From: Pseudomonas putida
GTDB taxonomy: Bacteria > Pseudomonadota > Gammaproteobacteria > Pseudomonadales > Pseudomonadaceae
NCBI RefSeq assembly: GCF_005080685.1
Contig: NZ_CP039371.1
Location: forward strand, 3,596,001 to 3,660,000
DNA length: 64,000 nt
Direction of reading: 5' to 3'
In this document: piece after piece, positions 2,049 through 24,787 of the stretch
Layout of the letters: each line of letters opens with the position of its first letter
How positions within the stretch are numbered: position 1 is the stretch's first letter
Position numbers and translations under genes: made by a program
The notes under the pieces: generated by a model
Told to the model about the DNA's origin: nothing
What the model saw: only the letters and a program-made list of their open reading frames with translations
The model's database searches: none

Positions 2049-3581
2049 TCAGGCGAGCACGCCTATTTGCCACGGGCAGAATTCATCCTCGCCCAAGCCA
2101 TTGAGCTCGCTTTTGGTCGCTTCCCCCGAGGCATGGGCAAGCAGGCGCTCGAAAATCTCCTGACCCATTTGGGCAATGGTCTTGTCGCCGTCGATGATCT
2201 GCCCGCAGTTGATGTCCATGTCATCGCTCATACGCTGGTACATCGGCGAGTTGCTGGCCAGCTTGAAGGTCGGCGCCGGCACTGAGCCGAAGCACGAGCC
2301 GCGGCCGGTGGTGAAGGCGATCAGGTTGGCACCGCCGGCGATCTGCCCGGTGGCCGAGACCGGGTCGTAGCCAGGGGTATCCATGAACACCAGGCCGTGG
2401 GTTTTCACCGGATGGGCATACTCGTACACGTCCATCAGCGGCGCATTGCCGCCCTTTTTCGCGCCGCCCAGTGACTTTTCCAGCACGTTGGCCAGGCCAC
2501 CGGCATTGTTGCCGGGGCTGACGCGGCCGTTGATCTGGGTATCGCGGCCGCGGTTGTACTCCAGCCACCACTCAATGCGCTCGATCAGTTTGCGGCCCAC
2601 CGCCGGGGTGGCGGCGCGGGCGGTCAGGGTGTGCTCGACGCCGAAGATTTCCGAGGTTTCCGAAAGGATCGCCGTACCGCCATGGCGCACCAGGATATCC
2701 ACCGCCGCGCCCAGCGCCGGGTTGGCCGAAAGGCCGGAGAATCCATCCGAACCGCCGCATTGCATGCCGATCATCAAGTGCTCGGCGGACACCGGCTGCC
2801 GCCGCGCCTGGTCGGCCTTGGGCAGCATGCCTTCGATCAGCGCGATGCCCTGATCGGTGGCGCTTTTCACCCCGCCGACCTCCTGGATCACCAGCTTCTT
2901 CAGCATGTCGCCTTCCACCAGCCCTTCCTGCTCGAAGAAGCCGTGGATGTTGTTGCGCTCGCAGCCCAGGGCGATCACCACCGCACCCACGGTGTTGGGG
3001 TGCTTGATGTAACCACCGATGGTGCGACGCAACAGGTCCATCGGCTCGCCGGTCATTTCCATGCCACAGCCGATTTCGTGCACATAAGGCACCACGCCAT
3101 CAATGTTGGGGAAACCTGCCAAGCGGCGCTCGTCGAAGTGGTTGGCGATCTTGCGCGCCACGGTGGCACCGCAGTTGCCGACCACGAACACACCGAGGTA
3201 ATTGCGGGTGGCCACGCGGCCATCCTCGCGGACGATGCCCTGGAAAGTCGCGCGCTGCTCGGGCGGCAGCAGGTCGGTGGGCACATAGTCCAGGCCGTAG
3301 CGGTAATCGCGGTCGGTTTCACCGAAGACGATGTTGTGGCTGTGCATCCAGGTGCCAGGCGGCAAATCCTCGGCGGCATAGCCGATCACCGTGTTGTACT
3401 TGAGCACCGGCTCGCCCTTGGTGATCAGCCGGGCAGCGACCTTGTGCCCCAGCGGCACGGCTTGCTGGATGGTGACGCCTTCACCGGGGATGGCGGTGCC
3501 GGCAGGAATCTCGATACGCGCGACCACGACATTGTCGGCGGCATCGAGGCGAATGACTGGGCTGACTTCACGGTAACTCAT
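2049..3581 (-). CDS. garD: Galactarate dehydratase (GarD/UxaA family)
   Basis: A 510-residue protein with the UxaA/GarD architecture: an N-terminal SAF-like domain (about 15-85), then a central domain with RNYLGVFVVGNCG and HEIGCGMEMTGEP, and a C-terminal domain with TTGRGSCFGS near residue 430. It dehydrates meso-galactarate to 5-dehydro-4-deoxy-glucarate in the cytoplasm. The ATG at 3581 follows TAGGAAAACACC. It is the third gene of a minus-strand unit after the MFS and the enolase-superfamily dehydratase, so two unrelated galactarate-type dehydratases sit together. An altronate dehydratase role is the main alternative; length and context favour GarD. Confidence 0.85.
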   Translation of the reverse strand: MSYREVSPVIRLDAADNVVVARIEIPAGTAIPGEGVTIQQAVPLGHKVAARLITKGEPVLKYNTVIGYAAEDLPPGTWMHSHNIVFGETDRDYRYGLDYVPTDLLPPEQRATFQGIVREDGRVATRNYLGVFVVGNCGATVARKIANHFDERRLAGFPNIDGVVPYVHEIGCGMEMTGEPMDLLRRTIGGYIKHPNTVGAVVIALGCERNNIHGFFEQEGLVEGDMLKKLVIQEVGGVKSATDQGIALIEGMLPKADQARRQPVSAEHLMIGMQCGGSDGFSGLSANPALGAAVDILVRHGGTAILSETSEIFGVEHTLTARAATPAVGRKLIERIEWWLEYNRGRDTQINGRVSPGNNAGGLANVLEKSLGGAKKGGNAPLMDVYEYAHPVKTHGLVFMDTPGYDPVSATGQIAGGANLIAFTTGRGSCFGSVPAPTFKLASNSPMYQRMSDDMDINCGQIIDGDKTIAQMGQEIFERLLAHASGEATKSELNGLGEDEFCPWQIGVLA

Positions 3582-3645: not shown

Positions 3646-4833
3646 TCACGGGCGTTTGCCGAACTCGATGCTGTGCTGGGTCCAGGCCAGGGCCTGTTCG
3701 CTGAGGGAGAAGCCCAGGCCTGGGCGGTTGGGCACCCACATGCGGCCCTCACGCAACTCCAGGCGTTCATTGGACATCGGCTCTAGCCATTCGAAGTGTT
3801 CCAGCCACGGCTCCTCCGGGTAGGCTGCCGCCAGGTGCAGGTGGATTTCCATGGCAAAATGCGGGGCCAGCTTCAGGCCTCTGAAACTGGCTAGGTTCAT
3901 GATCTGCAGGAACGGCGTGATACCGCCTACCCGCGGCGCATCGGGCTGGACGAAATCACAAGCGTTGGCAGTGATCAGCTGGGCGTGCTCGTTGAAGCTG
4001 GTGAGCATCTCGCCGGTGGCGATGGCGGTGTCCAACGACGCAGCCAAGGCGGCGTGGCCTTCGACGTCGGCACTGTCCAACGGCTCTTCGATCCAGGTCA
4101 GGTCGAACTGCTCGAGCTTGCGGCAGAAACGCTGGGCGGTAACCCGGTCCCATTGCTGGTTGGCGTCGACCATCAGCGGGAAGCCTTCGCCCAGTTGCTC
4201 GCGCACCGCCTGCACACGCTTGAAGTCGATGCTGGTGTCCGGCTGGCCGACCTTGATCTTGATGCCGCCGATGCCATTGCGACGGGAGGTCTGCACGTTT
4301 TCCAGGACCTTTTCCAGGGGCGTCGACAGGTAGCCGCCGGAGGTGTTGTAGCACTGTACCGAGTCGCGATGAGCGCCCAGCAACTTGGCCAGCGGCAGGC
4401 CCGCGCGCTTGGCTTTCAGATCCCACAGGGCGATGTCGAATGGTGCGATGGCCTGGGTGGTCAGGCCACTGCGGCCCATTGAAGCACCGGCCCAAAGCAG
4501 CTTGTTGTAGAGCTTGGCGATGTCGTTCGGGTCTTCGCCCAGCAGCGTCGGGGCGATTTCCTGGGCGTGGGCGTACATGCCGGGGCCACCGGCACGTTTG
4601 GAGTAGCCGAAACCGATGCCTTCGTGGCCTTCACGGGTGCGGATTTCGGCGAAGAAGAAGGCGATTTCGGTCAGCGGTTTCTGCCGACCGGTCAAGACCT
4701 TGGCATCGCTGATCGGCGCGCCCAGCGGCAGTACGGTGTACGACAGCTTGATCCACTCGATGCTGTCGGTGGTGGCGGCCCCAGGTTGCAGCGCGGCGAT
4801 TTTCGGGGCGATGTACACGTTGCTTTCGATCAT
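3646..4833 (-). CDS. L-talarate/galactarate dehydratase-like enolase-superfamily protein
   Basis: The 395-residue protein shows the mandelate-racemase-subgroup residues in order: K192-x-K194 (GIKIKVG), metal ligands D223, E249 and E275, the D298 partner and general-acid/base H325 (APHFAMEIH). These lie within about three positions of the numbering I recall for the characterised Salmonella TalrD/GalrD, which supports the substrate call. Expected reaction: dehydration of L-talarate or galactarate to a 2-keto-3-deoxy acid. Only 16 bases separate it from the upstream transporter gene, consistent with one transcript. The substrate is by analogy; the family is certain. Confidence 0.8.
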   Translation of the reverse strand: MIESNVYIAPKIAALQPGAATTDSIEWIKLSYTVLPLGAPISDAKVLTGRQKPLTEIAFFFAEIRTREGHEGIGFGYSKRAGGPGMYAHAQEIAPTLLGEDPNDIAKLYNKLLWAGASMGRSGLTTQAIAPFDIALWDLKAKRAGLPLAKLLGAHRDSVQCYNTSGGYLSTPLEKVLENVQTSRRNGIGGIKIKVGQPDTSIDFKRVQAVREQLGEGFPLMVDANQQWDRVTAQRFCRKLEQFDLTWIEEPLDSADVEGHAALAASLDTAIATGEMLTSFNEHAQLITANACDFVQPDAPRVGGITPFLQIMNLASFRGLKLAPHFAMEIHLHLAAAYPEEPWLEHFEWLEPMSNERLELREGRMWVPNRPGLGFSLSEQALAWTQHSIEFGKRP

Positions 4834-4849: not shown

Positions 4850-6235
4850 TCATTGAGCGTTGGAAGTTTTTCCGGTCAGGTCGGATAGCTGCAGTCGCTG
4901 GATGCGACCGACGATCACCAGGTAAGAAAAAGCTGCCAGCAGGCCGTGGGCACCGACGTAGATCAGTGCGCTGTTGAACGAACCGCTGGAGTGCAGCAGG
5001 TAACCGATCACCACCGGGGTGACGATGCCGGCAGTGTTGCCCAAGGCGTTGAACACGCCGCCGGTCATACCGATCATTTCCCGCGGCGCGGTGTCTGCCA
5101 CCACGCTGAAGCCGAGGTTGCCGAAGCCTTTGCCGAAGAACGCCAGGCTCATAACGGCGATCACTAGCCACTGGGCATCGACGTAGTTGCACAGCATCAT
5201 GCTCGAGCTCAGCAGCACGCCAGTGATGATGGGCGTCTTGCGGGCAATGCTCAGGGATCTGGTACGACGCAACAGGTAATCGGAGAAGAACCCCGACGAC
5301 ACTGCGCCGATCAGCCCGCACAGGGCCGGGATCGAAGCGACAAGGCCGGCCTGGAGGATGTCGAAGCCACGCTCCTTGACCAGGTAGATCGGGAACCAAG
5401 TGACGTAGAACCAGGTCACCGCACTGACGCAGTACTGGCTGAGGAACATGCCGATCAACATGCGGCTCTTGAACAGCAGGCCGACTTCCGTCAACGAGTT
5501 CCGGCGCTTTTCCTTGGGCAGCGAAGCCTGGGCTTCGAGGTCGACCAGCGCTTCGCCCTTGCGCAGGTAGTCGAGTTCCTCGCCGTTCATCTTCGGGTGG
5601 CTGACCGGCAGGTAGTAGTTTTTCCACCAGATCGCGGCGATGCCGAAGCCGACGATGCCCATGACGATGAACACGTATTCCCAACCGAAGGCGTAGCACA
5701 GCCAGCCCATGAACGGGGTGAAGAACGCCAGCGAGATGTACTGGGCGCTGTTGAAGATGGCCCCGGCCATACCCCGCTCCGCAGACGGAAACCATGATGC
5801 GATCACCCGGGTTGAAGCCGGCCCTACCGGCGCCTCGGCCACACCCAGCAGAAAGCGCAGTGCCAGCAGCAGCGGCACGATCATGCCGACGAAGTGCACC
5901 AGGCCCATGCACACGGTGAAGGCTGACCATACGCAGATGGCCAGTGCCATGGTTTTCTTCGAGCCGAAGCGGTCCGCCAGCCAGCCCGAGGGGATAAGGA
6001 AGATTACATAGGCCCAACTGAAGATGGAGAACAGGTAACCCATTTCCACCGAGCTGATGCCGAGCTCCTTGCTCATGTCGGAACCCGCTACCGACAGGGC
6101 GGCGCGGTCACCGCTGCTCAAGGCCAGGACCATGGTGATCAGGGCCAGGATCAGGTAGCGATAACGGGTAGCTGTGGTGGACGCGGCAACGGCGCCGGGG
6201 GCTGGCCCGGCGGCGTAGGTGTCGTGGTTGTGCAT
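4850..6235 (-). CDS. MFS transporter, glucarate/galactarate symporter type
   Basis: A 461-residue 12-TM protein of the anion:cation symporter group, with the GDRAALSVAG signature in helix 1 and LADRFGSKK in the first cytoplasmic loop, as in GudP/GarP. I chose the ATG at 6235 (MHNHDTY) because a GAGG lies 9 bases upstream; a longer in-frame start at 6355 would run through the operator region. It is the first gene of the garD unit and the likely uptake step for the hexarate. Confidence 0.85.
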   Translation of the reverse strand: MHNHDTYAAGPAPGAVAASTTATRYRYLILALITMVLALSSGDRAALSVAGSDMSKELGISSVEMGYLFSIFSWAYVIFLIPSGWLADRFGSKKTMALAICVWSAFTVCMGLVHFVGMIVPLLLALRFLLGVAEAPVGPASTRVIASWFPSAERGMAGAIFNSAQYISLAFFTPFMGWLCYAFGWEYVFIVMGIVGFGIAAIWWKNYYLPVSHPKMNGEELDYLRKGEALVDLEAQASLPKEKRRNSLTEVGLLFKSRMLIGMFLSQYCVSAVTWFYVTWFPIYLVKERGFDILQAGLVASIPALCGLIGAVSSGFFSDYLLRRTRSLSIARKTPIITGVLLSSSMMLCNYVDAQWLVIAVMSLAFFGKGFGNLGFSVVADTAPREMIGMTGGVFNALGNTAGIVTPVVIGYLLHSSGSFNSALIYVGAHGLLAAFSYLVIVGRIQRLQLSDLTGKTSNAQ

Positions 6236-6339
6236 CGCGGTTGCCTCATTGTTTTTATTGGCGTCGTGCAGGGCCTTGCACCGGCACCTGCTTCGAATTC
6301 TGGCAGCTCGCAGCCCTGCAGGAGAGCTGTTTTCGACCA

Positions 6340-6372
6340 ATGACAGCGCTATCAAATGACAGCGCTGTCATT
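6340..6372. promoter_or_regulatory. Tandem LacI-family operators
   Basis: ATGACAGCGCTGTCAT at 6356-6371 is a perfect 16-bp palindrome with a central GC, extended by one more pair on each side. Immediately left, 6340-6355 holds an imperfect copy, ATGACAGCGCTATCAA. Two adjacent even palindromes between the MFS gene and a divergent LacI gene are the expected target of that regulator, controlling both directions. Confidence 0.75.
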
Positions 6373-6515: not shown

Positions 6516-7553
6516 ATGCTGGAAACGCCCGCTACCGTCGCTGACCCGAAACCACCGCTGGCTGCCCCTGCCACCCTCGACGACGTGGCGAAGATGGCCA
6601 AGGTCTCGCCCATCACCGTTTCCCGGGTGATCAACCGGCCGGAACTGGTGTCGGAGAAAACCCAGAAAAAGGTGCGCAATGCCATCCGCAAGACGGGATA
6701 TGTACCGAACATGCTCGCGGGCGCCCTGGTTTCGCAGCGCAGCCGGCTGGTCATCGTGGTGGTACCGAATGTCGCCAACCGTGCCTTCGTCGACACCATT
6801 ACCCAGCTCGGTCAGCGACTGGCCACGGCCCGCTACCAGTTGCTGCTCAGCCAGTCAGACCTGGCAAACAGAAGTGAAGCGGAACTGATCGATGCGATCC
6901 TCGCCCGCCGCCCCGACGGCATCGTGCTGACCCGCCAGCTGCAAAGCCCTGAAGCGCGGGAAAAACTGATCGCCCGAGGCATTCCGGTGGTAGAGACCTG
7001 GGAGCTGGCGCAGGACCCGATCGACACGGTGGTCGGTTTTTCCCACGAGGCCGTTGGCCGGGCCATGGCCGAGCACATTATCGAACGCGGCCACCGCCGC
7101 GTGGGCCTGGTCTGGAGCGACGATGCCCGCGCCACTCGGCGGCGCCAGGCGTGTGTGGAGGCCCTGCGTGAAGCCGGCGTTGAGGTAGTTGCCTGCGAGC
7201 TCGAAGCAGTGCCGGTGAATATGGGCCACGGCCGTGAAGCCATGGCCCGGATGCTGGCAGCCAAGGTACCTATGGATGCGGTGATCTGCAGCATCGACCT
7301 GCTCGCCCAGGGGGTCATGGCCGAGGCCCAGGCCAACGGCCTGCAGGTGCCTCAGGACCTGGCGGTGATGGGCTTCGGCAACCTGGAATTCGCCGCGCAT
7401 ACCCACCCGCGCTTGAGCACGGTGAGTGTTGACGGCGGGCGCATTGGCCTGCGTACGGCAGAGCTTCTGCTGCAGCGGATCGAAGGCAGCCTGGAGCGTG
7501 GGGCGCAAGTGGAGGATGTCGGCTTCAGACTGGTGATTCGGGAAAGCACCTGA
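6516..7553 (+). CDS. LacI-family regulator of the galactarate module
   Basis: 345 residues. The DNA-binding helix-turn-helix and hinge (TLDDVAKMAKVSPITVSRVIN, about 20-40) are followed by a periplasmic-binding-type sugar domain with VVVVPNVANRAF and RRPDGIVLT, as in GntR-like LacI members. It is divergent from the MFS-dehydratase-garD unit, with the tandem palindromes at 6340-6372 between them; repression relieved by a hexarate or its dehydration product is the natural model. The start ATG follows GAGGCCCCC. Confidence 0.85.
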   Translation: MLETPATVADPKPPLAAPATLDDVAKMAKVSPITVSRVINRPELVSEKTQKKVRNAIRKTGYVPNMLAGALVSQRSRLVIVVVPNVANRAFVDTITQLGQRLATARYQLLLSQSDLANRSEAELIDAILARRPDGIVLTRQLQSPEAREKLIARGIPVVETWELAQDPIDTVVGFSHEAVGRAMAEHIIERGHRRVGLVWSDDARATRRRQACVEALREAGVEVVACELEAVPVNMGHGREAMARMLAAKVPMDAVICSIDLLAQGVMAEAQANGLQVPQDLAVMGFGNLEFAAHTHPRLSTVSVDGGRIGLRTAELLLQRIEGSLERGAQVEDVGFRLVIREST

Positions 7554-7732
7554 AGGCGTGCGTTCGCCAGCAAAAGCCCAAGCGCGGTGATGCAATTTGT
7601 CTAAGTACTGCTGAAGCAACTTGACTGGCTTCCCTTCAATGGATCGCTTCATAAGCGTCCCCCTTTTACTTTGAAAATCGCTCTCACACAGCCAGCCGTT
7701 CCAGCGAAGCCGGCGATCAGCGCAGAGGCAAG

Positions 7733-7754
7733 TCCCGCATAGTGGGATTTTTTT
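7733..7754 (+). terminator. Rho-independent terminator in the 7.55-7.83 kb gap
   Basis: TCCCGC-ATA-GTGGGA (one G-T wobble) followed by seven T residues. It lies about 180 bases past the LacI stop, farther than expected for that gene, so it could end a small RNA or mark the edge of the inserted block that begins with the next gene. Nothing else in this 273-base gap looks like a coding sequence. Confidence 0.55.
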
Positions 7755-7826: not shown

Positions 7827-9431
7827 ATGGAACGAACCAAGGGTACTGCCGCACTCGAAAAAGCGTTCGATTTGTTGGAGGCAATCGGTCTATCAGCTGA
7901 CGGACTCGAACCCCAGCAACTCAACGCGCAGGTAAACCTGCCCCGGGCGACCTTTTACCGCTTACTAGGCCTTTTGATCGATCGCGGCATGATTAGGCGT
8001 GACAGCACTGGTAAACGGTATCGACTCGGTTTTCGGTACCTTGAAATGGTGCGCGGCGCCTGGCTCGAGCCCGACCTTGTCGCTGCCGCCAGCTTCGAAT
8101 TAAGGTCATTGCGCGACTTGACTGGCGAGACCACCTATCTGGCAGTGCGTGATGGTGAACACGTATTATCTCTAGAACGATGCGACGGCGCGCACAGCAA
8201 CCGTTCTGCGGCGGCAATGGGGCAACGCAAGCCGATGCACTGCACCGGCCAGGGCAAAGCGATTCTCAGCGCGATTGCCGAGATTGAACGGCGCGATCTG
8301 CTGAAAAGAATTCAGTTGGAGCGTCTTACCCCACTCACCATTACTGATCGGGCACGTCTGTTGACTGAGCTTGAGGTTACCCGCACCCGTGGTTACGCCA
8401 TCGACGATGAAGAGATCGTCCTGGGTATTCGGTGTGTAGCTGCTCCGATCATTGATGCTGCAGGTCAGGTAAGGGGGGCGCTGAGCATTGCCGGTCCAGC
8501 CTACCGACTTACACGTAAACGCCTGGACCTCCTAGGGCCAGAAGTCGCAGCGTCAGCACAACGAGTCGGCAGCCAATTGACGGTTCGCCAAGTCAGTAAC
8601 ACACCGGATGTCTTGCAGCCAATCGATGACCGCTGGGCGTTCTTAGGGGGCTTTCCCCGCTGGAGCGGGCGGGAGAAATGCCTTTACTGGGTCGATCGAC
8701 TTGCACCCGCGGTCTACCGATACACCTGCGAGGGCACAGAAAAGATCTTTCGGCCTGAACACCCTGTCATCGGTATGGAACTCACCGCTGACGGTCAGTT
8801 CATCGCACTGGAACATGAATACCTATTTGTCAGCGAGGGTCGAGTTCGCAGCCGTGGTAAATGGGGATTTGGAATGCCGACCTGCATCTGCAGCGATCCA
8901 CAGGGGCGGATCTGGGCGGCTATTCGCATGGGCAGCGGCCAATGGAAAGTCGGCGAGGTGCACCGGGACGGGACATTGGCCAGCCAGTGGCAATTTAACG
9001 AAGCGATCACTGCCCTTTCTTGGGACCCTCACCGGGCCCAACTGTTTGCATTGGCTGCTGACTCCGGCACGCTGTTTAGGCTCGACTCAACCAGTCAGGT
9101 TCGTCGTTTCGCCACGCTTCCCAAGGGTTCGGGTTTGCTGAGCGGCCTTGCCGTGGATGAACAAGGCAACGTCTGGACCGCGCTATCAGATGGCTGGAGC
9201 ATTGTCAAATTCGACCGTGACGGTAACATCGAGCAGATGCTTGGCGTCCCTGTTGCATCACCTACTGACCTCTGTTTCGGCGGTAATGATGGCACCACTT
9301 TGTACATTACCTCTTCGCGCCAAGCAGTCAGCCGTCATGCACTCAAAACAGCCCCTTGGTCGGGCACAGTGATGTGCACTCCTGTGGACAGTCGCGGAGC
9401 CCCCGCGACCGTCACACGCGGCCCTGTCTGA
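7827..9431 (+). CDS. IclR regulator fused to a metal-site-less SMP-30/gluconolactonase domain
   Basis: 534 residues, about twice a normal IclR. Residues 1-75 form the winged HTH, with recognition helix near NLPRATFYRLL. Residues about 80-250 form the IclR effector domain (MGQRKPMHCTGQGKAIL, GYAIDDEE). Residues about 265-530 form a six-bladed SMP-30 propeller; LCFGGNDGTTLYIT and SDPQGRIW match SMP-30 blades closely. Aligned by eye to human SMP-30, ligands E18, N154 and D204 become G275, T395 and S439, and R101/N103 become M350/T352, so lactonase activity is unlikely. I infer a second sensor for a sugar lactone. The ATG follows AAGGAGAGGTGAT. It is convergent with the porin gene of the operon it probably controls. 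Confidence 0.85.
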   Translation: MERTKGTAALEKAFDLLEAIGLSADGLEPQQLNAQVNLPRATFYRLLGLLIDRGMIRRDSTGKRYRLGFRYLEMVRGAWLEPDLVAAASFELRSLRDLTGETTYLAVRDGEHVLSLERCDGAHSNRSAAAMGQRKPMHCTGQGKAILSAIAEIERRDLLKRIQLERLTPLTITDRARLLTELEVTRTRGYAIDDEEIVLGIRCVAAPIIDAAGQVRGALSIAGPAYRLTRKRLDLLGPEVAASAQRVGSQLTVRQVSNTPDVLQPIDDRWAFLGGFPRWSGREKCLYWVDRLAPAVYRYTCEGTEKIFRPEHPVIGMELTADGQFIALEHEYLFVSEGRVRSRGKWGFGMPTCICSDPQGRIWAAIRMGSGQWKVGEVHRDGTLASQWQFNEAITALSWDPHRAQLFALAADSGTLFRLDSTSQVRRFATLPKGSGLLSGLAVDEQGNVWTALSDGWSIVKFDRDGNIEQMLGVPVASPTDLCFGGNDGTTLYITSSRQAVSRHALKTAPWSGTVMCTPVDSRGAPATVTRGPV

Positions 9432-9432: not shown

Positions 9433-10707
9433 CTATTTAAGGGCGAAGGTGTAGGTGAGAATCACACGGTTCTCATCCCTTCGTCCAGTGACGTCCCCTT
9501 GAATCTCCACATTGCGCCAGCGCAAGGCCAAGTCCTTGAGAGGCCCACTTTGGATGACATAGGTGATGTCCAAGTTACGCTCCCACTCTTTGCCGGATTG
9601 GCCATTGACCTCGAAGTCGTCGCCACGAACGTATCGTGCAAACGCAGAGAGGCCGGGTACCCCGAGACCGGCGAAGTCAACGTCATAGCGCGCCTGCCAG
9701 GAGCGCTCTCCTGCTCTGTCAAAGCGCAGGACCTGGATAGCGTTGGAAACGCCTGGGAGGTCAGTGTCATGCAAGAAAGGTAAGGCGCTGTCACCGGCAT
9801 TGTATTGGTATCCCAGCGTGACCTTTTGGAAACCATACGCGGCGCTCAGCAGGCCGGAGGTCATGCGGCTGTCGAGGTCGCCGGCGCGAGCAGCGCCGTC
9901 CTCTTTACTGTCGAGATAGTTCAGCGTACCGCTCAGTCGCACGCCCCCCAGATCGACATACTTCGTAGCGGTATACAGCGTCTGCTGATAGACATCTTCC
10001 AGCCGTCCACCCCAAACCCCTACCGACAGGCTTGGGTCGGGCAGCCAGGTCCCGCCGAGATAGGTGAATCGGTCACCCGTCACGTTGAAATAGTTACCGG
10101 TCTGCATGTCCCGGCTCCCACTGAACTCGCGATAGTTGACCTGGCGCATTTGCCCGAGGCTGAAGCTGAAGTGATCAAGCTCGTTGATATCTAGCATCGC
10201 GCCTTCAAAGAATTGCGGCAGCAACCGCGAATCGCCGGCATACACCAGCGGTATCTTTGGGAAAAGCCCACCTACCTTGAGCTCCGTCTTCGACACTTTA
10301 ACCTTCACTGCCGCTGTGGCTTCCGAATACTCATCTGCCGAGCGCGGATCGGAATTGCGAGGGGCGCCGACGCGCTTATAGGCGCCAGGCAACAAACCAC
10401 TGCCGCTACGATCCGGTGAAGAGTCTAGTTTTAAGCCTAAGCCTGCGTAGACATCCACACCTACGGCAATCGGCGTGTCTGTATAACCAGATTGGGCTTT
10501 GAAGATAAATCCCTGCGCCCACTCTTCAATTTTGGACTGGGCGGGCGCGGTCGAGTCGCGCAGATCGTGGTTATAGTAGAAGTTGCGCAGCGTAAGATTG
10601 GCCTTGCTGTCTTCGAAGAACGCAGCTTGTGCCGACAATGGAATGAGCCCTGATACACAAAGAGCGATGGCGGATACGGACGAGGAACGAGGTTGACTGA
10701 ATTGCAT
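9433..10707 (-). CDS. OprD-family outer-membrane porin
   Basis: A 424-residue porin: signal peptide ending AQA, then AFFEDSKANLTLRNFYYNHDLR and repeated amphipathic strands. The ATG at 10707 follows AAAGGAAAATAATAAG; a GTG at 10752 is in frame but lacks a better ribosome site. It is the last gene of a minus-strand catabolic operon and the probable outer-membrane entry route for the substrate. Its stop is one base from the stop of the convergent regulator gene, leaving no room for a classical terminator. Confidence 0.88.
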   Translation of the reverse strand: MQFSQPRSSSVSAIALCVSGLIPLSAQAAFFEDSKANLTLRNFYYNHDLRDSTAPAQSKIEEWAQGFIFKAQSGYTDTPIAVGVDVYAGLGLKLDSSPDRSGSGLLPGAYKRVGAPRNSDPRSADEYSEATAAVKVKVSKTELKVGGLFPKIPLVYAGDSRLLPQFFEGAMLDINELDHFSFSLGQMRQVNYREFSGSRDMQTGNYFNVTGDRFTYLGGTWLPDPSLSVGVWGGRLEDVYQQTLYTATKYVDLGGVRLSGTLNYLDSKEDGAARAGDLDSRMTSGLLSAAYGFQKVTLGYQYNAGDSALPFLHDTDLPGVSNAIQVLRFDRAGERSWQARYDVDFAGLGVPGLSAFARYVRGDDFEVNGQSGKEWERNLDITYVIQSGPLKDLALRWRNVEIQGDVTGRRDENRVILTYTFALK

Positions 10708-10767
10708 TCTTATTATTTTCCTTTGGACATTCAGTGTGCGCAGCGGGCTCACCGCTGCGTGCAGGTG

Positions 10768-11637
10768 TCAGCGTGGTGACCAGATAAATCGCACGCTCGC
10801 CTCCAGCGTTTGGCCGGGCTGGACCACATTCGTGCCTCGGTCTGTCCACTCGCTGACATGACTGTTAAAGGCATCCGCCAAGTGCGAGACGGGCTCCAGG
10901 CAAAGATAAGGAGCACCAGGGGGGGCAAACGCGACGAAATGGGTAAGAGGTTCGTCTGCTTTCATGAGCAAATGACCTTGGTGATAATCAACCTTGAGCT
11001 CGCCATCCCACTGCGAACCGTACAAGGCCAACTCTTGCCCCAGCGCGTCATCGATGATGACTGGAGCACTCACTGCATCCGACTTGCCGGTTGGTAAGTA
11101 CTCATCATCAATCTGCCAAGAGCGCCCTACATTAAGCTCAACACGCATCCTTGGATGGCGGTGGAAATAGGGATGCAGGCCCAAGCCTGCGGGCATCGAT
11201 GTCTCACCCAGGTTGGTAACGGCAAGCCGTACCGAAAGGGTATTGCCGCCCAAGGAGAAACGTTGCTCAAACCTTACCGGCCACGGCCAATGTTCTCCCT
11301 CGTAAAGGCAGACCAAGATGACGCTGTCTGCACTCCTTGCAGCCACCGTCCAATGCAAAGTTTGCGCTACGCCATGCAGGGTATGCGGGAGAGCCGCAGG
11401 ATGAGGAGGCAACGAATAGGATTTCCCCTCATGCATCAGGTTCGCCTCACGAACCCGGTTTGAATAAGGCATGAGCGGATAGATACCACCCCTTGGCCAT
11501 GCCAATGGATCGAAGCTGTCGGCTACCAGCGGGGTCATGATGTCCACGCTATCCGCTTGCATCAGCGCGACGCGTCCGCCCCACTCGGGAATTAGCGACA
11601 ACGACCAAGTTTTATTGCTGAGTTCTACGCGAGTCAT
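10768..11637 (-). CDS. Aldose 1-epimerase (mutarotase) family protein
   Basis: 289 residues with the galactose-mutarotase fold. The catalytic set is visible: H88 (TLHGVAQ), H155 (GLHPYF) and E248 (LCLEPVSH), plus PYSNRV near residue 60, which contacts sugars. The ATG at 11637 is preceded by AAAAAGGAACTGCCA. It interconverts alpha and beta anomers of a free aldose or uronate and so feeds the dehydrogenase encoded two genes upstream. Neighbouring genes on both sides share strand and spacing. Confidence 0.85.
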   Translation of the reverse strand: MTRVELSNKTWSLSLIPEWGGRVALMQADSVDIMTPLVADSFDPLAWPRGGIYPLMPYSNRVREANLMHEGKSYSLPPHPAALPHTLHGVAQTLHWTVAARSADSVILVCLYEGEHWPWPVRFEQRFSLGGNTLSVRLAVTNLGETSMPAGLGLHPYFHRHPRMRVELNVGRSWQIDDEYLPTGKSDAVSAPVIIDDALGQELALYGSQWDGELKVDYHQGHLLMKADEPLTHFVAFAPPGAPYLCLEPVSHLADAFNSHVSEWTDRGTNVVQPGQTLEASVRFIWSPR

Positions 11638-11728
11638 TGGCAGTTCCTTTTTCAAGCATGCAGCGTCCCGCCCGGCGCGTTTTTACACGCCGGTGGGGGT
11701 TGTTATTAGGGTCGCGGTTCGGGCGGGC

Positions 11729-12820
11729 TCAGCTTCGGCGGAACTGCTCGAATACGCTCATGTTCATTTCAAGCCCAAGGCCTGCTGCCGTTGGAACATG
11801 CATCAGTCCATCGTGCAGCAACCCTTTGATGTCATAGAGCCAACCATCCGTCTCGACGTAGTGGTATTCCACCAATGGCACTCCTGGCTGAGCGGCGGCC
11901 AGGTGAAGGGTCGCTAATAGGCCAGGGCCGAAGTACGGGCTATGAGGCAGAACCAAGGTGTCGTACTGCGCAGCCAGATTGGCGATGCGCATGCACTCGC
12001 TGACGCCGCCAACCTTGGTTACCGATGGCTGAATAGAATCCACTGCACCTTGTCGAAGGGCTTCTTCGAATTGCACAGCGGTACACCAGTTCTCACCGGC
12101 GGATATCGGCACGCCATGTCCGCGTAAGCTGGCCAGCGCTTGGAAGTCTTCTGGGGGGAAGATCGGTTCCTCCAGCCATGCCAAGTCGATTTCGGCCAAC
12201 TTTGGCAACCATTCGCGAGTGGCGTCGATTGCCCATGAACAGTTGACGTCGGTGGCCAGAGGAATGTCGCGGCCGATGGCACGACGGCACTCGGCGACTT
12301 CCCCGACAACGTTTTCGTGCAGCTTGATGTGCTTGAAACCTTCGCGCAGCGCGCGCTCGCAGACTTTCGGCGCGATCGAGCCTTCGCCATAACGGACCAA
12401 GCTGGCATAAGCGGGAATAGATGACCGGGTACCGCCACCCAGCAGGTGGTGCAGGGGCAGTTCCTCACGTTTGGCCTGCAGATCCCAGAGGGCCATGTCC
12501 ACCCCAGATAAGCCGAACATCGTCACACCGTAACGACCGAAGATGTGCAACCGTAGCTGGGTGTCCAAGTTCCATGCCGCGATATCGGTGATGGTCTGGC
12601 CGACGGCCAACGGGGCGATCAGGCGATCGATCATTGCCCTTACCGAATCGGCCACGAAATAACCGAATGCCTCACCCCAGCCCACATTGCCGAGCTCGTC
12701 TTCCACCCGCACCAGCACGTTTTCCAGCGTGTGCCAGGTCATCGGGGTGATGATCTTGGGGTTGCCGCCGTCGTGGAACGGTATCTCGACCACGAAGGTC
12801 TTGATACTGGCAATTTTCAT
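11729..12820 (-). CDS. Enolase-superfamily acid-sugar dehydratase, KxH type
   Basis: 363 residues with capping and barrel domains of the mandelate racemase group. Metal ligands D191, E217 and E243 and barrel H293 are present. The second-strand motif is K166-L-H168 rather than KxK, and the position that usually gives the Asp of the His-Asp dyad reads S266 (QPSVTKVGG). It likely dehydrates an aldonate or aldarate made by the Udh-like enzyme, whose gene overlaps this start by 4 bases. I cannot assign the substrate; the two substitutions argue against simple transfer from a characterised family. Confidence 0.8.
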   Translation of the reverse strand: MKIASIKTFVVEIPFHDGGNPKIITPMTWHTLENVLVRVEDELGNVGWGEAFGYFVADSVRAMIDRLIAPLAVGQTITDIAAWNLDTQLRLHIFGRYGVTMFGLSGVDMALWDLQAKREELPLHHLLGGGTRSSIPAYASLVRYGEGSIAPKVCERALREGFKHIKLHENVVGEVAECRRAIGRDIPLATDVNCSWAIDATREWLPKLAEIDLAWLEEPIFPPEDFQALASLRGHGVPISAGENWCTAVQFEEALRQGAVDSIQPSVTKVGGVSECMRIANLAAQYDTLVLPHSPYFGPGLLATLHLAAAQPGVPLVEYHYVETDGWLYDIKGLLHDGLMHVPTAAGLGLEMNMSVFEQFRRS

Positions 12821-13629
12821 GACCGCGCTCCAAGTACGCTCACCAATGGCGCACCGGCATAAGCTCCACCTACATGGTCGCGACCAGATGTGTGTGGGTC
12901 CATCTGTTCGTAAGGCAGGTATTCAGGTGCCAGATGATCCTTGGCATTGTCTTTCGGCTGGTAGCCGAGGGCGCGGGCACGGCCGTTGCTGAACAGCGGA
13001 TTGGGGCTTTCCGAGACGCCGTAGACGATCTCCTGGCGTACCTCGGGATGCTCCAGGCCAATGCGGATCAACTGGGCAAGATCTCGACCGCTGGTCCACA
13101 TACGCAGGCGACGCGCGTCAGAAACCTTTGCGTCCGCATTACCGATTCGGATAATGAAGGTGGCCAAGTCGTAGCGCTGGGAGAACGCCGCACAGGCGGC
13201 TTCGCCGAAGACCTTGCTCATCGCGTAATAGCTATCAGGCGCTGGAATTGCATCATCGAAGGTCTCGGCTGCATCGGTTCGATATTGCCCAACCACATGG
13301 TGGCTGCTGGTGAAGAGGAAACGTTTTGCGCCATGCCGTTGCGCAGCTTCCAGCAGATACAGCGTCGCGTGGTAGTTGGGCTCGACCGTCGCCTGGAACG
13401 CAATGTCAGTACCGTGTGCACACGCTAAATGAAGAATGCCGTACGTGCCCTGAACTGCGCGATCAACCAAAGCGGGATCGGTAAGGTCGCCTACGATTTC
13501 TGTTTCTCCCGGCTGAAGATCGCCGACTGGTCGGCGATCGAGCAAACGCAATTGGTAGTGCTCGCGCAGCAGAGGGCGAAGCGCGGTACCGACGATGCCT
13601 GCGGCACCGGTGATCAACAAGGTTTGCAT
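12817..13629 (-). CDS. Uronate-dehydrogenase-like extended SDR
   Basis: 270 residues. Nucleotide-binding TGAAGIVG sits at the N-terminus (G8, G11, G14) and catalytic Y135-x3-K139 in PDSYYAMSK. The segments FTSSHHVVGQY and LRMWTSGRDLAQLIRIGLE resemble those of P. syringae uronate dehydrogenase as I remember it. Reaction expected: NAD-dependent oxidation of a uronate or aldose at C1 to its lactone. The ATG at 13629 follows GAGGAGTATCAGGA. Translational coupling with the next gene (ATGA overlap) ties oxidation to dehydration. A nucleotide-sugar epimerase role is less likely given this context. Confidence 0.78.
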   Translation of the reverse strand: MQTLLITGAAGIVGTALRPLLREHYQLRLLDRRPVGDLQPGETEIVGDLTDPALVDRAVQGTYGILHLACAHGTDIAFQATVEPNYHATLYLLEAAQRHGAKRFLFTSSHHVVGQYRTDAAETFDDAIPAPDSYYAMSKVFGEAACAAFSQRYDLATFIIRIGNADAKVSDARRLRMWTSGRDLAQLIRIGLEHPEVRQEIVYGVSESPNPLFSNGRARALGYQPKDNAKDHLAPEYLPYEQMDPHTSGRDHVGGAYAGAPLVSVLGARS

Positions 13630-13689
13630 TCCTGATACTCCTCGAATTGCTGACTGCCGCGCCAGGCATTGCTGCACGGCAAATTGTAT

Positions 13690-14976
13690 TCACACGATGG
13701 CAGGGGCTGCCTCGACCGCGGCTCGTTCGTTTACGAATAGCGCCACGATGACAGCTCCAACAATGCCCAGCGCGCCGGCCAAGGCAAAGCCACTGGAGAA
13801 GGTGCCCGTCGACTGAATAATGATCCCGGTAACCGTAGGTGCCACGATCCCGGACAGATTGGCTAGGCCATGCATGAAGCCGCCAGCGGTACCAACCTGA
13901 TGATCAGGTACAGCGTCTTGGATCATCGACCAGTAGGCTGGTGCAGATAGCATCAGGAAGCCCACGGCAACGGTCATTACCGCCACCGCCGCGCTGATGC
14001 TTTCAAGCTGCCCTGTCAGGGCGACGCAGCTAGCGGCCACCAGCAGGCAGCTGACCAGCACCAGCTTGCGCGAATACAGACGGCGCCCGGTGCGCTTAAA
14101 CACCCAGTCGATCAGTAACCCACCACCGATAAAGCCGAACGTACCCACCAGCCACGGCAGCGCGGTGACCACGCTCATCGATTTGAGGTCGATGCCCTTG
14201 GCGTCGATCAGGTAGCTCGGGAACCAGGTCATGAAGAAGTACAGGATGTAGTTGTAACAAAAAAGCGACAGCCCGGAGATCAGCACCGCACGCTGAGTGA
14301 TGACCTGCATGACCGGGGTGCGAGGTGCCTCGTCCGCCGCCTGCACCGGAACATCGCGCTCGGCGTTAATCAGTGCCAGTTCCTCGGCACTGACCCGAGG
14401 GTGTTCATTGGGCGTGGATGCAGCCATGCGCCACCAAGCGACCGCCCAAAGAATGCCAATGCAGGCGATCACCACAAAGGCAACGCGCCAACCCAGCCAA
14501 ATGGCCAGGAAGCCAACGATCGGACCCGCCAACGCGCCGCCCAACGGGCCGCCCGCCTGGGCAATGCCAATGGCCCGAGCTCGCTCGGTGATGGGGAACC
14601 AGCTATTGATGGCCTTGTTGGCGGTAGTACTGACCGGGCCTTCGCCGACGCCGAATAAGGCACGCACGATCAACAGCGACCAAAAATTGAAAGCCAGGGC
14701 GGTAGAACCGCACAGAACCGACCAGAAACCCATCGACCAGGTCAGCACGCGCTTGGGACCGAAACGGTCGGCCAGGTAACCGCCGACGAAGCAGAACAGC
14801 GCATAGCCAAAGAAGAAGCTGCTGAAAATCAGTCCTTTCTCGGCTGGGGTCAGGTGGTAGTCCTGGGTGATAAAAGGCATGGCGATCGAAAGCGCAGCAC
14901 GATCGACATAGTTAATAACCATGGCGAGGAAAAGCATGGACAGGATTGTCCAGCGGTAGGACTTGTTGTTATTCAT
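13690..14976 (-). CDS. MFS transporter, hexuronate/hexarate symporter type
   Basis: 428 residues and 12 predicted TM segments, with MVINYVDRAALSIAMPFI in helix 1 and GGYLADRFGPKRV in loop 2-3, the hallmark of the ExuT/GudP anion:cation symporters. The ATG at 14976 follows GGAG-TCACCG. A close paralogue with the same MNNNKS start is encoded at 20365-21657, so this locus carries two copies, one in each divergent unit. Confidence 0.85.
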   Translation of the reverse strand: MNNNKSYRWTILSMLFLAMVINYVDRAALSIAMPFITQDYHLTPAEKGLIFSSFFFGYALFCFVGGYLADRFGPKRVLTWSMGFWSVLCGSTALAFNFWSLLIVRALFGVGEGPVSTTANKAINSWFPITERARAIGIAQAGGPLGGALAGPIVGFLAIWLGWRVAFVVIACIGILWAVAWWRMAASTPNEHPRVSAEELALINAERDVPVQAADEAPRTPVMQVITQRAVLISGLSLFCYNYILYFFMTWFPSYLIDAKGIDLKSMSVVTALPWLVGTFGFIGGGLLIDWVFKRTGRRLYSRKLVLVSCLLVAASCVALTGQLESISAAVAVMTVAVGFLMLSAPAYWSMIQDAVPDHQVGTAGGFMHGLANLSGIVAPTVTGIIIQSTGTFSSGFALAGALGIVGAVIVALFVNERAAVEAAPAIV

Positions 14977-15029
14977 CGGTGACTCCGCGCGCCCTCGTTG
15001 GGGCGCGTCTGTTGTTATCGCTGTCGATG

Positions 15030-15323
15030 TCAAACGGTGTAGTCGACCGCCACCCACTCGAAATACTGCTTCAAGTCTTTCACCAACGCCTGATGAGCAG
15101 GGTGAGGCAGGTAGCGTTCGACCGCAGCGGAATCATCGAAACTGGATTCCAGGATATAGTCCCAGCAAATCGGCCTATCGAGCTCATTGGCCGCCACTCG
15201 CCAGTCCCGAATGAAGTCGATCTGCTGAGGCAGTACATGCATGCGTTCGACCAGCTCAGCCTCAAGGCCGGGCTGGGCGTCGACATCCGCACGGCGACGA
15301 AACATAACGATATGACGCATCAT
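15030..15323 (-). CDS. Dabb (stress-responsive A/B barrel) domain protein
   Basis: 97 residues forming a single ferredoxin-like Dabb domain: an initial RHIVMFRRR strand, a central helix, and a final strand with YLPHPAHQALVKDL, typical of this family. Such proteins are small dimers found beside dehydratases, dehydrogenases and polyketide-type enzymes; most have no known reaction. The start at 15323 has GAGGG eight bases upstream; ATG at 15320 is also possible. It lies between the aldehyde dehydrogenase and the transporter in one operon. Confidence 0.8.
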   Translation of the reverse strand: MMRHIVMFRRRADVDAQPGLEAELVERMHVLPQQIDFIRDWRVAANELDRPICWDYILESSFDDSAAVERYLPHPAHQALVKDLKQYFEWVAVDYTV

Positions 15324-15339: not shown

Positions 15340-16743
15340 TTACTTTTGTGCCCAAGTTGGCGCGTCTTGCAGCGCTACTGGACGAAGGAAACGCTCAAGC
15401 GCCGCGTAGCCAACCGACGTGGTCTGCGGAGCTGTAGAGGCCGGCCATGGGCCACCGTGTTGTTGTGCAGAGCAAACAGCCACACCGGTAGGCACACCCT
15501 TGAACAGCACTCGGCCAGCGATCTGTTCGGCAGCGTGAACAAGTGAGCGGTTGTCGGCAGTATCGTCGTCGGCGCCCCAGAGGGTGGCGGTGAGCGTGCC
15601 ACCGATGGCCGCCAGCACTTGCTCGACTTGGCGAAGATCAGAAGCGGTCACGACCAATGCAGCCGGACCGAACATTTCTTCACGCAGATGGGCATTAGCG
15701 ATGAACGACGTTGCATCGGTACGATAAAGACGTGGAGCAGGCCCAACACCTTCGGTACCTGTGAAGATTGCCTCGGCATGTGCTCCCACCACTGACGTGG
15801 CACGCTCGAAACCGTCACGCATGGACGGCGTCAACATGGCATGAGTGAGGAGCGGTTCAAGGGCAGCACCCAGTTGCTCAACGAAACGCTCGCTGGCTTC
15901 GCCTTCGAGCAATACGATAACACCAGGGCTTGTACAGAATTGCCCGCAGCCGAGGGTGATCGAGCCGGCCAGCGTGTTGGCCAGGTTCTGGCTGTCTGCC
16001 TGTAGCGCGGCAGGCAACGCCACCAGTGGATTGATCGAGCCGAGCTCTCCGAAGAATGGAATTGGACGAGGACGTTCGTTGGCCAGTTTCCACAAGGCGG
16101 TACCGCCTTGATAGGAGCCAGTGAAGGCCACCGCTGCGATGTCAGGATGTTGCACGAGGTAGCCCCCCGCGCCGCGTGAAGCGCCCTCCACCAGAGTGAT
16201 GAGACCTTCCGGCAGTCCTTGTGCCACCACAACCTGACGCGCGAGCTCGTAGACAGCAACAGATAGCTTCGGGTGGCCCGAGTGAGCTTTAACCACCACC
16301 GGGCATCCAGCCGCAAGTGCCGATGCGGTATCGCCACCGAGTACAGAGAAGGCGAACGGGAAGTTGCTTGCCGAGAACGTTGCCACCGGTCCCAGTGGGC
16401 GCTGTACACGGGTCAATTGCGGGCGCCCAACTGGCGGTGCACCGGCAGCAGCCTCGTCCACTACTTTGCCCTGGGCCGCGCCATTTTCGAGCTGCTCGGC
16501 GAAGCCGCGCAACTGGAAGCCAGTACGCGCTACTTCGCCGTTGAGCCGACCGGCGCCAAGATGGCTTTCTTTATCAGCAATCGCTACGAGATCAGCCTGG
16601 TGAGCTTCCAGCGCTTGGGCCAGCCCCCTCAGCAGCCGGGTGCGCACTTCGACGCTGGCCTTGGCCCACAATGGCGCAGCTTGGACGGCCGAGGCCACAG
16701 CATGATCAATGGTTTGTTGCGCATTTAACTGGGTCATGTTCAT
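15340..16743 (-). CDS. Aldehyde dehydrogenase (2,5-dioxovalerate/ketoglutarate-semialdehyde type)
   Basis: 467 residues of the ALDH superfamily, with N127, K152, E233 (FFGELG) and nucleophile C270 (GCGQFCTSPG). The GCGQFCT and FFGELGSINP forms are those of NADP-preferring alpha-ketoglutaric-semialdehyde dehydrogenases, which finish non-phosphorylative pentose and hexarate pathways by making 2-oxoglutarate. It overlaps the upstream SnoaL-like gene by a few bases. No KdgD-type deoxyketoglucarate dehydratase is present in the operon, so the aldehyde substrate may differ from the textbook one. Confidence 0.85.
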   Translation of the reverse strand: MNMTQLNAQQTIDHAVASAVQAAPLWAKASVEVRTRLLRGLAQALEAHQADLVAIADKESHLGAGRLNGEVARTGFQLRGFAEQLENGAAQGKVVDEAAAGAPPVGRPQLTRVQRPLGPVATFSASNFPFAFSVLGGDTASALAAGCPVVVKAHSGHPKLSVAVYELARQVVVAQGLPEGLITLVEGASRGAGGYLVQHPDIAAVAFTGSYQGGTALWKLANERPRPIPFFGELGSINPLVALPAALQADSQNLANTLAGSITLGCGQFCTSPGVIVLLEGEASERFVEQLGAALEPLLTHAMLTPSMRDGFERATSVVGAHAEAIFTGTEGVGPAPRLYRTDATSFIANAHLREEMFGPAALVVTASDLRQVEQVLAAIGGTLTATLWGADDDTADNRSLVHAAEQIAGRVLFKGVPTGVAVCSAQQHGGPWPASTAPQTTSVGYAALERFLRPVALQDAPTWAQK

Positions 16744-17192
16744 GCTTCCTTAGTGGCCGGTTCGAGGTGATAGCCACGACCGCTATAATCGAAGTCAACC
16801 AGTTCATTAATGGACACCTGCTTGTCGGCAGGCGATGCGTAATAAGCGCGGATCTCTTTGATCAAACCACTGTCTTTGTCGAAGATGTACCACTCGTCAC
16901 CCCGCAGTGCGGTGCTCAGTTTGCTCTTCCAGTGCGTCCACTCAATCACCGCTTCGTCACTGTCATGGCTGACCAAGATCTTCTCGATCGTCCACTGTGA
17001 ACCGAGGTTTTCCACACACCATTGCCACTTGCGTGCGATGGTGTCGGCAGTACGCCACGGAATGTCCGGCAACCCATCTGGGAAGTAGTGCACGGCGTCA
17101 GGAGTGAAGCAGGACACCAACTTGTCGTAGTCCGCTTCGTTGCAGGCCGCGAAGTAACGGCGAATGGTCTGGGCGTGCTTATGCTCGGCCAT
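16740..17192 (-). CDS. SnoaL/NTF2-like protein
   Basis: 150 residues with an alpha+beta cone fold signature: helix IRRYFAACNEADYDKLVSCF, then DAVHYFPDG and a late WTHWKSKL strand. Family members include ketosteroid isomerase, polyketide cyclases and limonene-epoxide hydrolase, so an isomerase, hydrolase or dehydratase step is possible. The ATG at 17192 follows AAGGACTGAGATC. It sits between the RraA-like and aldehyde dehydrogenase genes with almost no spacing. The exact reaction is unknown. Confidence 0.7.
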   Translation of the reverse strand: MAEHKHAQTIRRYFAACNEADYDKLVSCFTPDAVHYFPDGLPDIPWRTADTIARKWQWCVENLGSQWTIEKILVSHDSDEAVIEWTHWKSKLSTALRGDEWYIFDKDSGLIKEIRAYYASPADKQVSINELVDFDYSGRGYHLEPATKEA

Positions 17193-17196
17193 GATC

Positions 17197-18000
17197 TCAG
17201 TCCTTCTTGGCAATGATCGATGGAATAGCAGGACGGCCGGAGGCTACCCAGTCTTGGTAGGCGGCGACGGCCTCGGGGCTTGGTGGGTAGACACCCCACA
17301 GCGCCTCACCGGAGGCGATACGCATGGCCAAGTAGTTTTCGATGTCGTCTTGCTCCAAGCACACATCGGCCAATTCAGCGGCAAGGTGCGCAGGGACCAG
17401 CGTCACGCCATCTGCGTCGCCAACGATTACATCGCCTGGGTACACGGCAATGCCTGCACAGCCAATTGGCACCTGCAGGTCGGCCACGTGATGGTAGGAA
17501 ATACGGGTAGTCGCGGTGATTTCTCGGGCGTACGCCGGCAGAGTCATCTCTGCAATTTCACTGCCGTCGCGCAGGGCGCCGTCGGTCACAATGGCGCGGG
17601 CGCCTCGGGCCAAAAGGCGGGTGACCAGAATGTTGCCAGCGGAAGCTGCGGCTGGGTCGTTACGGCTATCGATAACCAACACATCGCCCGGCTGAATCTG
17701 CTCCACGCCCTGCCACTGCAAATTGTCGCCATTAGGCTTGGTGGTCATGGTGCCGTAGGTATCAATGTCTTCCCGCGCCGGTATAAACCGCATGGTGAAC
17801 GCACGACCTGCAAAAGGCTTGGCATTTCGGCTCATGGCTTTCAGACCGACGAACGCTGGTTGACGGAAACCGCGCTTGAACAGCTGCGTGGTCAGCGAAC
17901 CGCTGGAGCAACGAGAGAGTTTCTCCAGGGTTTCATCGCTTACCGCGACGTTGCGATTAGCACTGTTGTCGTAGTCGTCGGAATACTGGTGAATAGCCAT
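17197..18000 (-). CDS. RraA-like / HMG-aldolase family protein
   Basis: 267 residues. The family core GNILVTRLLARGARAIVTDGALRD (about 122-145) carries D140, R144 and D145 in the arrangement used by 4-hydroxy-4-methyl-2-oxoglutarate aldolases for metal and pyruvate-enolate binding. Members act either as class II pyruvate aldolases or as RNase E inhibitors; within a catabolic operon an aldolase or a decarboxylase is more likely. It is the first gene of the nine-gene minus-strand unit, with GGAGAACAATAA before the ATG. Confidence 0.78.
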   Translation of the reverse strand: MAIHQYSDDYDNSANRNVAVSDETLEKLSRCSSGSLTTQLFKRGFRQPAFVGLKAMSRNAKPFAGRAFTMRFIPAREDIDTYGTMTTKPNGDNLQWQGVEQIQPGDVLVIDSRNDPAAASAGNILVTRLLARGARAIVTDGALRDGSEIAEMTLPAYAREITATTRISYHHVADLQVPIGCAGIAVYPGDVIVGDADGVTLVPAHLAAELADVCLEQDDIENYLAMRIASGEALWGVYPPSPEAVAAYQDWVASGRPAIPSIIAKKD

Positions 18001-18118
18001 TTATTGTTCTCCAGGCTGAATGGGACGGCAGGCTCGTCGAGCCAGCAACTGGAGCCGATGCTAGGGGTTACTCTCCCTGCGACAAAACGTCATCGTCACT
18101 CGGCAACTGTGGTTTTCT

Positions 18119-18128
18119 CATATAGCGA
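18119..18128. promoter_or_regulatory. Possible IclR-type half site in the divergent promoter region
   Basis: CATATAGCGA here matches 8 of 10 bases of CATATCGTGA, the left part of the palindrome before the IclR fusion gene. It lies in the 216-base gap between the divergent RraA-like and hydrolase genes, where a regulator of both units would be expected to bind. No second half is obvious, so this is weak. Confidence 0.3.
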
Positions 18129-18216
18129 GAGTTCTGTTCGCCAGACCTGCGCAAACCCGCGCCCATCAATGCTTACCGGGATAGGCTGCACAGGCCCTTC
18201 AGCCCTGGTACGACGA

Positions 18217-24779: not shown

Positions 24780-24787
24780 CGCAGGCC

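Follow-up and report, generated by a model that had tools for sequence, protein, structure and literature searches.

We found that a gene of Pseudomonas putida encodes one protein in which an IclR-type transcription factor is followed by an SMP-30/gluconolactonase-type propeller, and, judging from the residues at the expected positions, the catalytic lactonase site of this propeller is lost. The gene lies in the window, i.e. the whole stretch of 64,000 nucleotides analysed here (contig NZ_CP039371.1, positions 3,596,001 to 3,660,000). The protein belongs to a family, hereafter class 2, which is tied to a pair of genes for an RraA-like and a SnoaL-like protein. We propose that it is a regulator dedicated to sugar-acid genes, in which the propeller serves as a second binding module without catalytic activity, and we assign to this proposal as a whole a probability of about 0.5.

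Table 1. Features of the fusion gene and its locus in the window
Feature	Position	Strand	Remark
UxaA/GarD-type galactarate dehydratase	2049..3581	-	Below equivalog cut-off
L-talarate/galactarate dehydratase	3646..4833	-	NCBIfam 686 bits (cut-off 500)
MFS transporter	4850..6355	-	D-galactonate transporter model above cut-off
Perfect operator-like palindrome TTCCCATACTTTGGGAA	6422..6438	.	Between permease/GalrD/GarD genes and LacI gene
LacI-type regulator	6516..7553	+	Nearest NCBIfam model GntR, below its cut-off
Operator-like palindrome GTCCCGCATAGTGGGAT	7732..7748	+	95 bases before fusion; 10/12
IclR - pseudo-SMP30 fusion regulator	7827..9431	+	Single protein, 534 aa
HTH_IclR DNA-binding domain	7851..8003	+	Residues 9-59; Pfam domain match
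IclR_C effector domain	8073..8567	+	Residues 83-247; Pfam domain and fold match
SMP-30/gluconolactonase-type six-bladed propeller	8616..9416	+	About residues 264-530; no metal site
G275	8649..8651	+	Metal Glu expected
M350 and T352	8874..8882	+	Substrate Arg and Asn expected
T395	9009..9011	+	Metal Asn expected
S439	9141..9143	+	Metal Asp expected
OprD family porin	9433..10752	-	Adjoining fusion
Aldose 1-epimerase family protein	10768..11655	-
Mandelate racemase/muconate lactonizing enzyme superfamily protein	11729..12820	-	Second enolase-superfamily protein
Uronate-dehydrogenase-like (Udh-like) SDR protein	12817..13677	-	Closest solved relatives uronate dehydrogenases
MFS transporter	13690..15057	-	Nearest D-galactonate transporter model, below its cut-off
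Operator-like site before permease gene	15159..15175	-	10/12; similar distance in L001, L002, L108
Aldehyde dehydrogenase	15340..16743	-
SnoaL-like protein	16740..17213	-	Constant partner of fusion
RraA-like putative aldolase	17197..18000	-	Constant partner of fusion
Weak TCTC-type motif variant before RraA-like gene	18115..18131	+	By eye; below thresholds used

The fusion protein and its propeller

The Pfam scores for HTH_IclR (36.5 bits; cut-off 22) and IclR_C (142.5 bits; cut-off 24) place the protein in the IclR family, and the fold of its effector domain matches those of Escherichia coli AllR and IclR. In comparison with the NCBIfam models of IclR subfamilies (BhcR, KdgR, PcaR, AllR and IclR), it stays under every listed cut-off, its best score being 176.5 bits against 350 for BhcR. 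The remainder of the same open reading frame has a score for the SGL family and six blades, which assign it to the SMP-30/gluconolactonase fold. An earlier reading made from the sequence only had described an IclR factor fused to a full-length propeller, in which the three metal ligands and the two substrate contacts are all exchanged for other residues, and we arrived at the same description: the Glu/Asn/Asp metal triad of active SMP-30 lactonases is occupied by G275, T395 and S439, and M350 and T352 stand at the substrate contacts.

Spread of class 2

A check for other IclR-SMP30 fusions and for their ligand-site residues, which had been suggested together with the sequence-only reading, brought to light a large family, whose architecture is already annotated in databases under generic names. 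The protein search with the window fusion gave 609 matches among the candidates scored, and within the best 120 of these 609, which were examined, all but one (P0019) have the SGL domain. Another protein search with an Acetobacteraceae query, from which we took the best 120 of 454 matches, some shared with the first search, gave proteins with IclR_C and SGL domains; both searches scored only candidates sharing most words with the query. A scan of species genomes yielded 185 confirmed relatives, and the best 80 of them, used here as loci, are mostly from Pseudomonas and Burkholderiales, with two from Acetobacteraceae. Plasmid records were also searched, and in 139 of them a match spans 80% or more of the query.

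The site residues were inspected in 310 partly redundant class 2 sequences, i.e. 232 listed proteins of at least 450 residues (P0019, with 437 aa, falls below this limit) and 78 loci partly repeating them; L042 and L047, in which the fusion is split into two frames, were excluded from this set and from that of 79 rows. The metal Asp was found in none of the 310, the metal Glu in five and the metal Asn in six, so that no sequence has the full triad, and the commonest letters at the three positions are S, A and S; because the set was gathered by likeness to class 2, class 1 fusions with an intact site (see below) could not turn up in it. The triad, Asp included, is kept in 58 of 58 stand-alone relatives. 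With the metal Asp missing from all 310, the window protein is typical of its family, which is large and has no lactonase site. Distant class 2 members from Bosea, Bradyrhizobium and Agrobacterium 1D1108 have likewise lost the site and have RraA and NTF2-type genes alongside.

Broken copies were also noticed. A truncated propeller of the same family without an IclR part is present in the window's own genome (L091:9084-9752; contig 1, 4328096-4328737), being 42% identical to residues 314-516 of the window fusion and adjoined by reading frames that look mobile-element-like by eye; it is a decayed second fusion. In Candidatus Burkholderia humilis, a broken second copy (L078:5542-7392, minus strand) lies beside a longer one.

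Selection and conservation in the propeller

The propeller domain is under purifying selection. By the Nei-Gojobori method, its dN/dS was 0.05-0.48, well below 1, for each related pair that yielded a value (16 of 17), the values for several pairs with dS above 1 being rough; the pair of the window and L002 gave none, its synonymous sites being saturated. The values for the window and L001 are 0.05 in the propeller and 0.046 in the IclR part, and in all 16 pairs with a value the propeller has the higher ratio of the two, reaching its maximum of 0.475 in the pair L066/L075.

Conservation in the fusions was 0.79 in the IclR half versus 0.57 in the propeller (49 rows). Within the propeller, the ligand-side loops, assigned from the secondary structure of the structure model, reached 0.64 versus 0.43 for the opposite face (49 rows; p 2e-6 with positions treated as independent), and a second set of fusions, of 65 rows, gave 0.61 and 0.42; for 18 stand-alone SMP-30 proteins the two faces gave 0.56 and 0.57, with no difference. 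This face of the propeller therefore seems to be functionally relevant, and it may be a pocket. Among the conserved residues that set the fusions apart are F272, L292, A293, P313, W388, E392, G434 and R498, and W388, E392 and R498 are present in 0, 6 and 11%, respectively, of the 18 stand-alone proteins. The five lost site positions are variable across the family, and no single new residue set has taken their place. A re-tooled pocket as a clear statistical pattern was not supported, because family-specific residues occupy 7 of 82 positions on the ligand side versus 2 of 45 on the other, which is no significant concentration (p 0.49). In the effector domain, C203 and S220, which we take to be ligand contacts of the IclR effector pocket, are invariant in the 49 kept rows.

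Fusions with an intact site and the origin of the two classes

Class 1 fusions have the same domain order as the window fusion, but all five site residues (E/R/N/N/D) are kept in 7 of the 7 checked, namely L113 from Agrobacterium fabrum, L114 from Roseibium, L115 from Sinorhizobium meliloti, L116, L117, L146 from Rhizobium sullae and L147 from Labrenzia, L147 and L114 being almost identical. Three of the seven are annotated, under the name SMP-30/gluconolactonase/LRE family protein; they have sugar ABC transporter and SDR genes alongside, and no RraA-like gene was found in their 6-kb flanks. The window fusion differs from them on both counts, having lost the site and lying in an RraA/SnoaL context. 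Class 1 is rarer than class 2; in 398 Pseudomonadota genomes sampled, where up to three candidates were scored in each, two full-length class 1 fusions (L116 and L117) were among the matches listed. From their intact sites, class 1 proteins may be bifunctional lactonase-regulators.

Class 2 forms one group with full support in both the propeller tree and the IclR tree. In the propeller tree a branch supported at 79/95 separates all fusions from the other proteins, and in the IclR tree, which has ten unfused outgroup proteins on long branches, the unfused proteins fall on one side in 43% of bootstrap trees. We favour a single fusion event for both classes because of the former value; the IclR tree does not settle the question. 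Since class 1 sites are intact and the three annotated fusions lie in sugar-ABC/SDR neighbourhoods, lactone binding is a plausible ancestral function of the propeller of these fusions. A path from enzyme to sensor can be imagined on this basis, although as a whole we regard it as speculative and rather unlikely: a lactonase and an IclR factor would have been fused with the site intact, as in class 1, perhaps as a trigger enzyme both opening and reporting the lactone, and catalysis would then have been dropped in class 2, where the propeller would serve as a second input, so that two metabolites are compared before a sugar-acid operon is opened via one conserved operator.

Gene partners of the fusion

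The window genes in Table 1 include galactarate, talarate and uronate-type enzymes, and the locus is a sugar-acid catabolic one, with the Udh-like protein named in the sequence-only reading. The best NCBIfam model for the Udh-like protein is Azf, below its cut-off. The RraA-like protein resembles 4-carboxy-4-hydroxy-2-oxoadipate aldolases and may split a 2-keto-3-deoxy acid.

The search of 298 Pseudomonas genomes found the fusion, the RraA-like gene and the SnoaL-like gene each in the same 13 genomes at the cut-offs used, a co-occurrence that should not be taken as 298 independent trials because common descent and gene transfer link the genomes. In one Pseudomonas genome, four fusions are accompanied by five RraA-like and three SnoaL-like genes. 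When window genes were used as baits at 45% identity or more in the 80 loci, the RraA-like gene was found in 65, the SnoaL-like gene in 59, the aldehyde dehydrogenase gene in 41 and Udh in 23, counts that are lower bounds because 27 of the 80 loci span less than 20 kb; 15 loci have no RraA-like gene at this identity. The RraA-like gene is the divergent neighbour of the fusion in 59 of the 80 loci, with a median gap of 196 bases.

The sequence-only reading had further proposed that the propeller senses a lactone made by Udh. A Udh-like gene does stand at the locus, and, at the cut-off used, Udh was found in 10 of the 298 Pseudomonas genomes, all 10 among the 13 that bear the fusion (0 of the 285 others). 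As a constant partner, however, Udh had to be rejected: it lies near 23 of 80 fusions versus 65 of 80 for RraA, no match to it was found in 3 of the 13 genomes at the same cut-off, and in 42 of the 80 loci (flanks of at most 10 kb) the RraA-like gene is present and Udh absent at 45% identity. A lactone from Udh is a possible ligand, not one core to the family. The talarate/galactarate dehydratase gene is present in 49 of the 298 genomes, eight of which are among the 13.

An operator-like palindrome

From the regions upstream of the fusions we derived a 17-base palindrome, KTYCCMNNNNNKGGRAM, to which the fusion is predicted to bind. In 80 upstream regions, i.e. those of 79 loci and the window (L054 being too short), 66 regions have the motif at 11/12 positions or better versus 2.5 expected from dinucleotide shuffles, and 37 have it perfectly versus 0.08 expected; since the motif had been derived from these very regions, the counts do not test it independently. 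Five additional Pseudomonas fusions, which are related to the training loci, have it at 11/12 or better in 5 of 5 and perfectly in four. Many loci have two copies about 104 bases apart. The motif precedes 58 of 65 RraA-like genes, mostly in the same intergenic stretch shared with the fusion, and it also stands ahead of one of the permease genes (13 of 26 copies) and of Udh (3 of 23). In the other loci, no motif at 11/12 or better was found before permease-a (0 of 11), GarD (0 of 14), the second enolase-family gene (0 of 24) and OprD (0 of 11); the LacI row of L019 was excluded, its start being computed past the locus end. The evidence for control of the galactarate genes therefore comes from the window and from L003, where a perfect site lies 73 bases before LacI. 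A separate check of three Alphaproteobacterial class 2 loci did not find the strict motif (11/12 or better) upstream, and in L110 and L111 looser TCTC-type variants ahead of the RraA-like gene were seen by eye.

In the window, there are 55 sites at 10/12 or better versus 73 expected, 8 at 11/12 or better versus 7 and two perfect ones versus 0.25; because weak matches are no commoner than chance, we relied solely on the perfect copy at 6422 and on sites shared with relatives. Both the fusion and the RraA-like gene are preceded by weak sites. The level of 10/12 at 7732-7748 is common by chance in the window; a site at about this distance is also present in L001 and L108, and none at 10/12 or better was found in L002. 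The second perfect match, GTCCCCGCACAGGGGAC at 55799-55815, lies far from the locus and may be a chance match. The sequence-only reading had placed the operator at 7789-7802, which is a perfect 6-2-6 inverted repeat; we could not uphold this, since none of the three close relatives L001, L002 and L108 has the repeat, and we regard it as a less likely operator than 7732-7748 and 6422-6438.

Proposed role of the propeller and its alternatives

According to our proposal, the fusion would be a dedicated local regulator of a hexuronate/aldarate-type catabolic module, whose core would consist of the RraA-like putative aldolase and the SnoaL-like protein, often with the aldehyde dehydrogenase. The IclR head would bind TTCCCANNNNNTGGGAA-type palindromes ahead of the module and of the fusion gene itself, and the IclR effector domain would sense one metabolite. 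The propeller, without the catalytic metal, would bind a pathway metabolite (a lactone, an aldarate or a keto-acid) and tune the first input, and in the window bacterium the neighbouring galactarate genes would perhaps also be controlled by the fusion. The part of the propeller as a second ligand sensor is presumed, and so are the ligands, the two-input logic and a repressing or activating action; what was observed of a pseudoenzyme-sensor transcription factor is that the domain is kept and its site lost.

The strongest rival is that the propeller is a scaffold, which mediates oligomer formation or protein contact and leaves all sensing to the IclR effector domain. Protein binding is common among propellers, and both the higher conservation of the IclR half and the free variation at the former active-site positions would suit such a role, but the better conserved face of the propeller in the fusions is that of the ligand-side loops, and the small-molecule site is intact in all seven class 1 cousins; we consider a pure scaffold unlikely, yet to be taken seriously. 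That the sensed compound is specifically an aldarolactone made by the Udh-like enzyme of the locus agrees with the distribution of Udh in Pseudomonas and with the published finding that Udh makes galactaro- and glucarolactone and that the lactonases UxuL and UxuF open 1,5-lactones (PMC6353982). The 42 loci with an RraA-like gene and no Udh in their flanks, outside Pseudomonas perhaps with Udh elsewhere in the genome, and the three Pseudomonas genomes without it speak against this specific form, which we find doubtful.

The loss of the metal site bears on a further alternative, that the propeller still hydrolyses lactones through other residues, the regulator being a bifunctional trigger enzyme. 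Purifying selection, the conservation of W388, E392 and R498, which few stand-alone proteins have, and the apparent catalytic competence of the class 1 cousins would fit it; however, neither the metal Asp nor the triad occurs in the 310 sequences, and to our knowledge the known SMP-30 lactonases require the metal, so that we hold it to be very improbable. Hardest to accept is that the propeller is a useless remnant beside an IclR part that works alone. Its faster evolution, the pair L066/L075 with the highest dN/dS and the decayed second copy in the window's own genome might be read in this way, but dN/dS stays clearly below 1 in all 16 pairs with a value, and each of the 17 places detected at E 1e-60 in the 298 Pseudomonas genomes has the propeller as well. 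The two protein searches are silent on this last alternative because unfused IclR proteins were too short to be candidates.

Relation to known systems

The fusion shares HTH_IclR and IclR_C with the IclR family regulators (nearest model BhcR; also KdgR, PcaR/PcaU and AllR), and differs from them in its C-terminal propeller of about 270 residues. In comparison with the SMP-30/gluconolactonase/LRE lactonases, such as SMP30 and the Caulobacter xylonolactonase (7plb), the window propeller is without their three metal ligands and two substrate contacts and is fused to a DNA-binding protein. In transcription factors such as the ROK repressors (NagC and Mlc) and MocR/GabR, a retired or recruited enzyme fold serves as sensor beside a DNA-binding domain, as we propose for the fusion, although the folds differ. 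Two pockets are possible in the fusion because, unlike in these regulators, the factor already has its own effector domain. The lactonases UxuL and UxuF of oxidative hexuronate catabolism have as substrates the 1,5-lactones that uronate dehydrogenase produces (PMC6353982), and this is the pathway type of the window; they are enzymes, whereas the fusion is a regulator, and the likeness drawn here is one of pathway.

The open-licence papers searched yielded no report of an IclR factor with a retired SMP-30 propeller and intact cousins, and nothing on the pair of RraA-like and SnoaL-like genes. Retired enzymes serving as sensors are known, usually with the end state alone visible. Because intact (class 1) and retired (class 2) fusions can be compared, a stepwise test of the loss of catalysis becomes possible, and the predicted operator and the fixed gene partnership make testable what a dead enzyme domain adds to a regulator that already bears a sensor. 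The RraA-like/SnoaL-like pair becomes tied to sugar-acid catabolism, which gives a handle on its substrate.

Other observations

The window's own genome has a second talarate/galactarate dehydratase gene (contig 1, 2290594-2291727), 69% identical to the window gene. At 30748-32460 of the window (minus strand), there is a long frame whose later part, from MNASGRTSRALR, resembles a secreted protein of SMP-30/royal-jelly type by eye, with a weak SGL match. Two sets of genes at 23460-27318 and 35872-39875 resemble by eye a GMC-type oxidoreductase, a cytochrome c and a small subunit, and both have the look of a membrane gluconate-type dehydrogenase.
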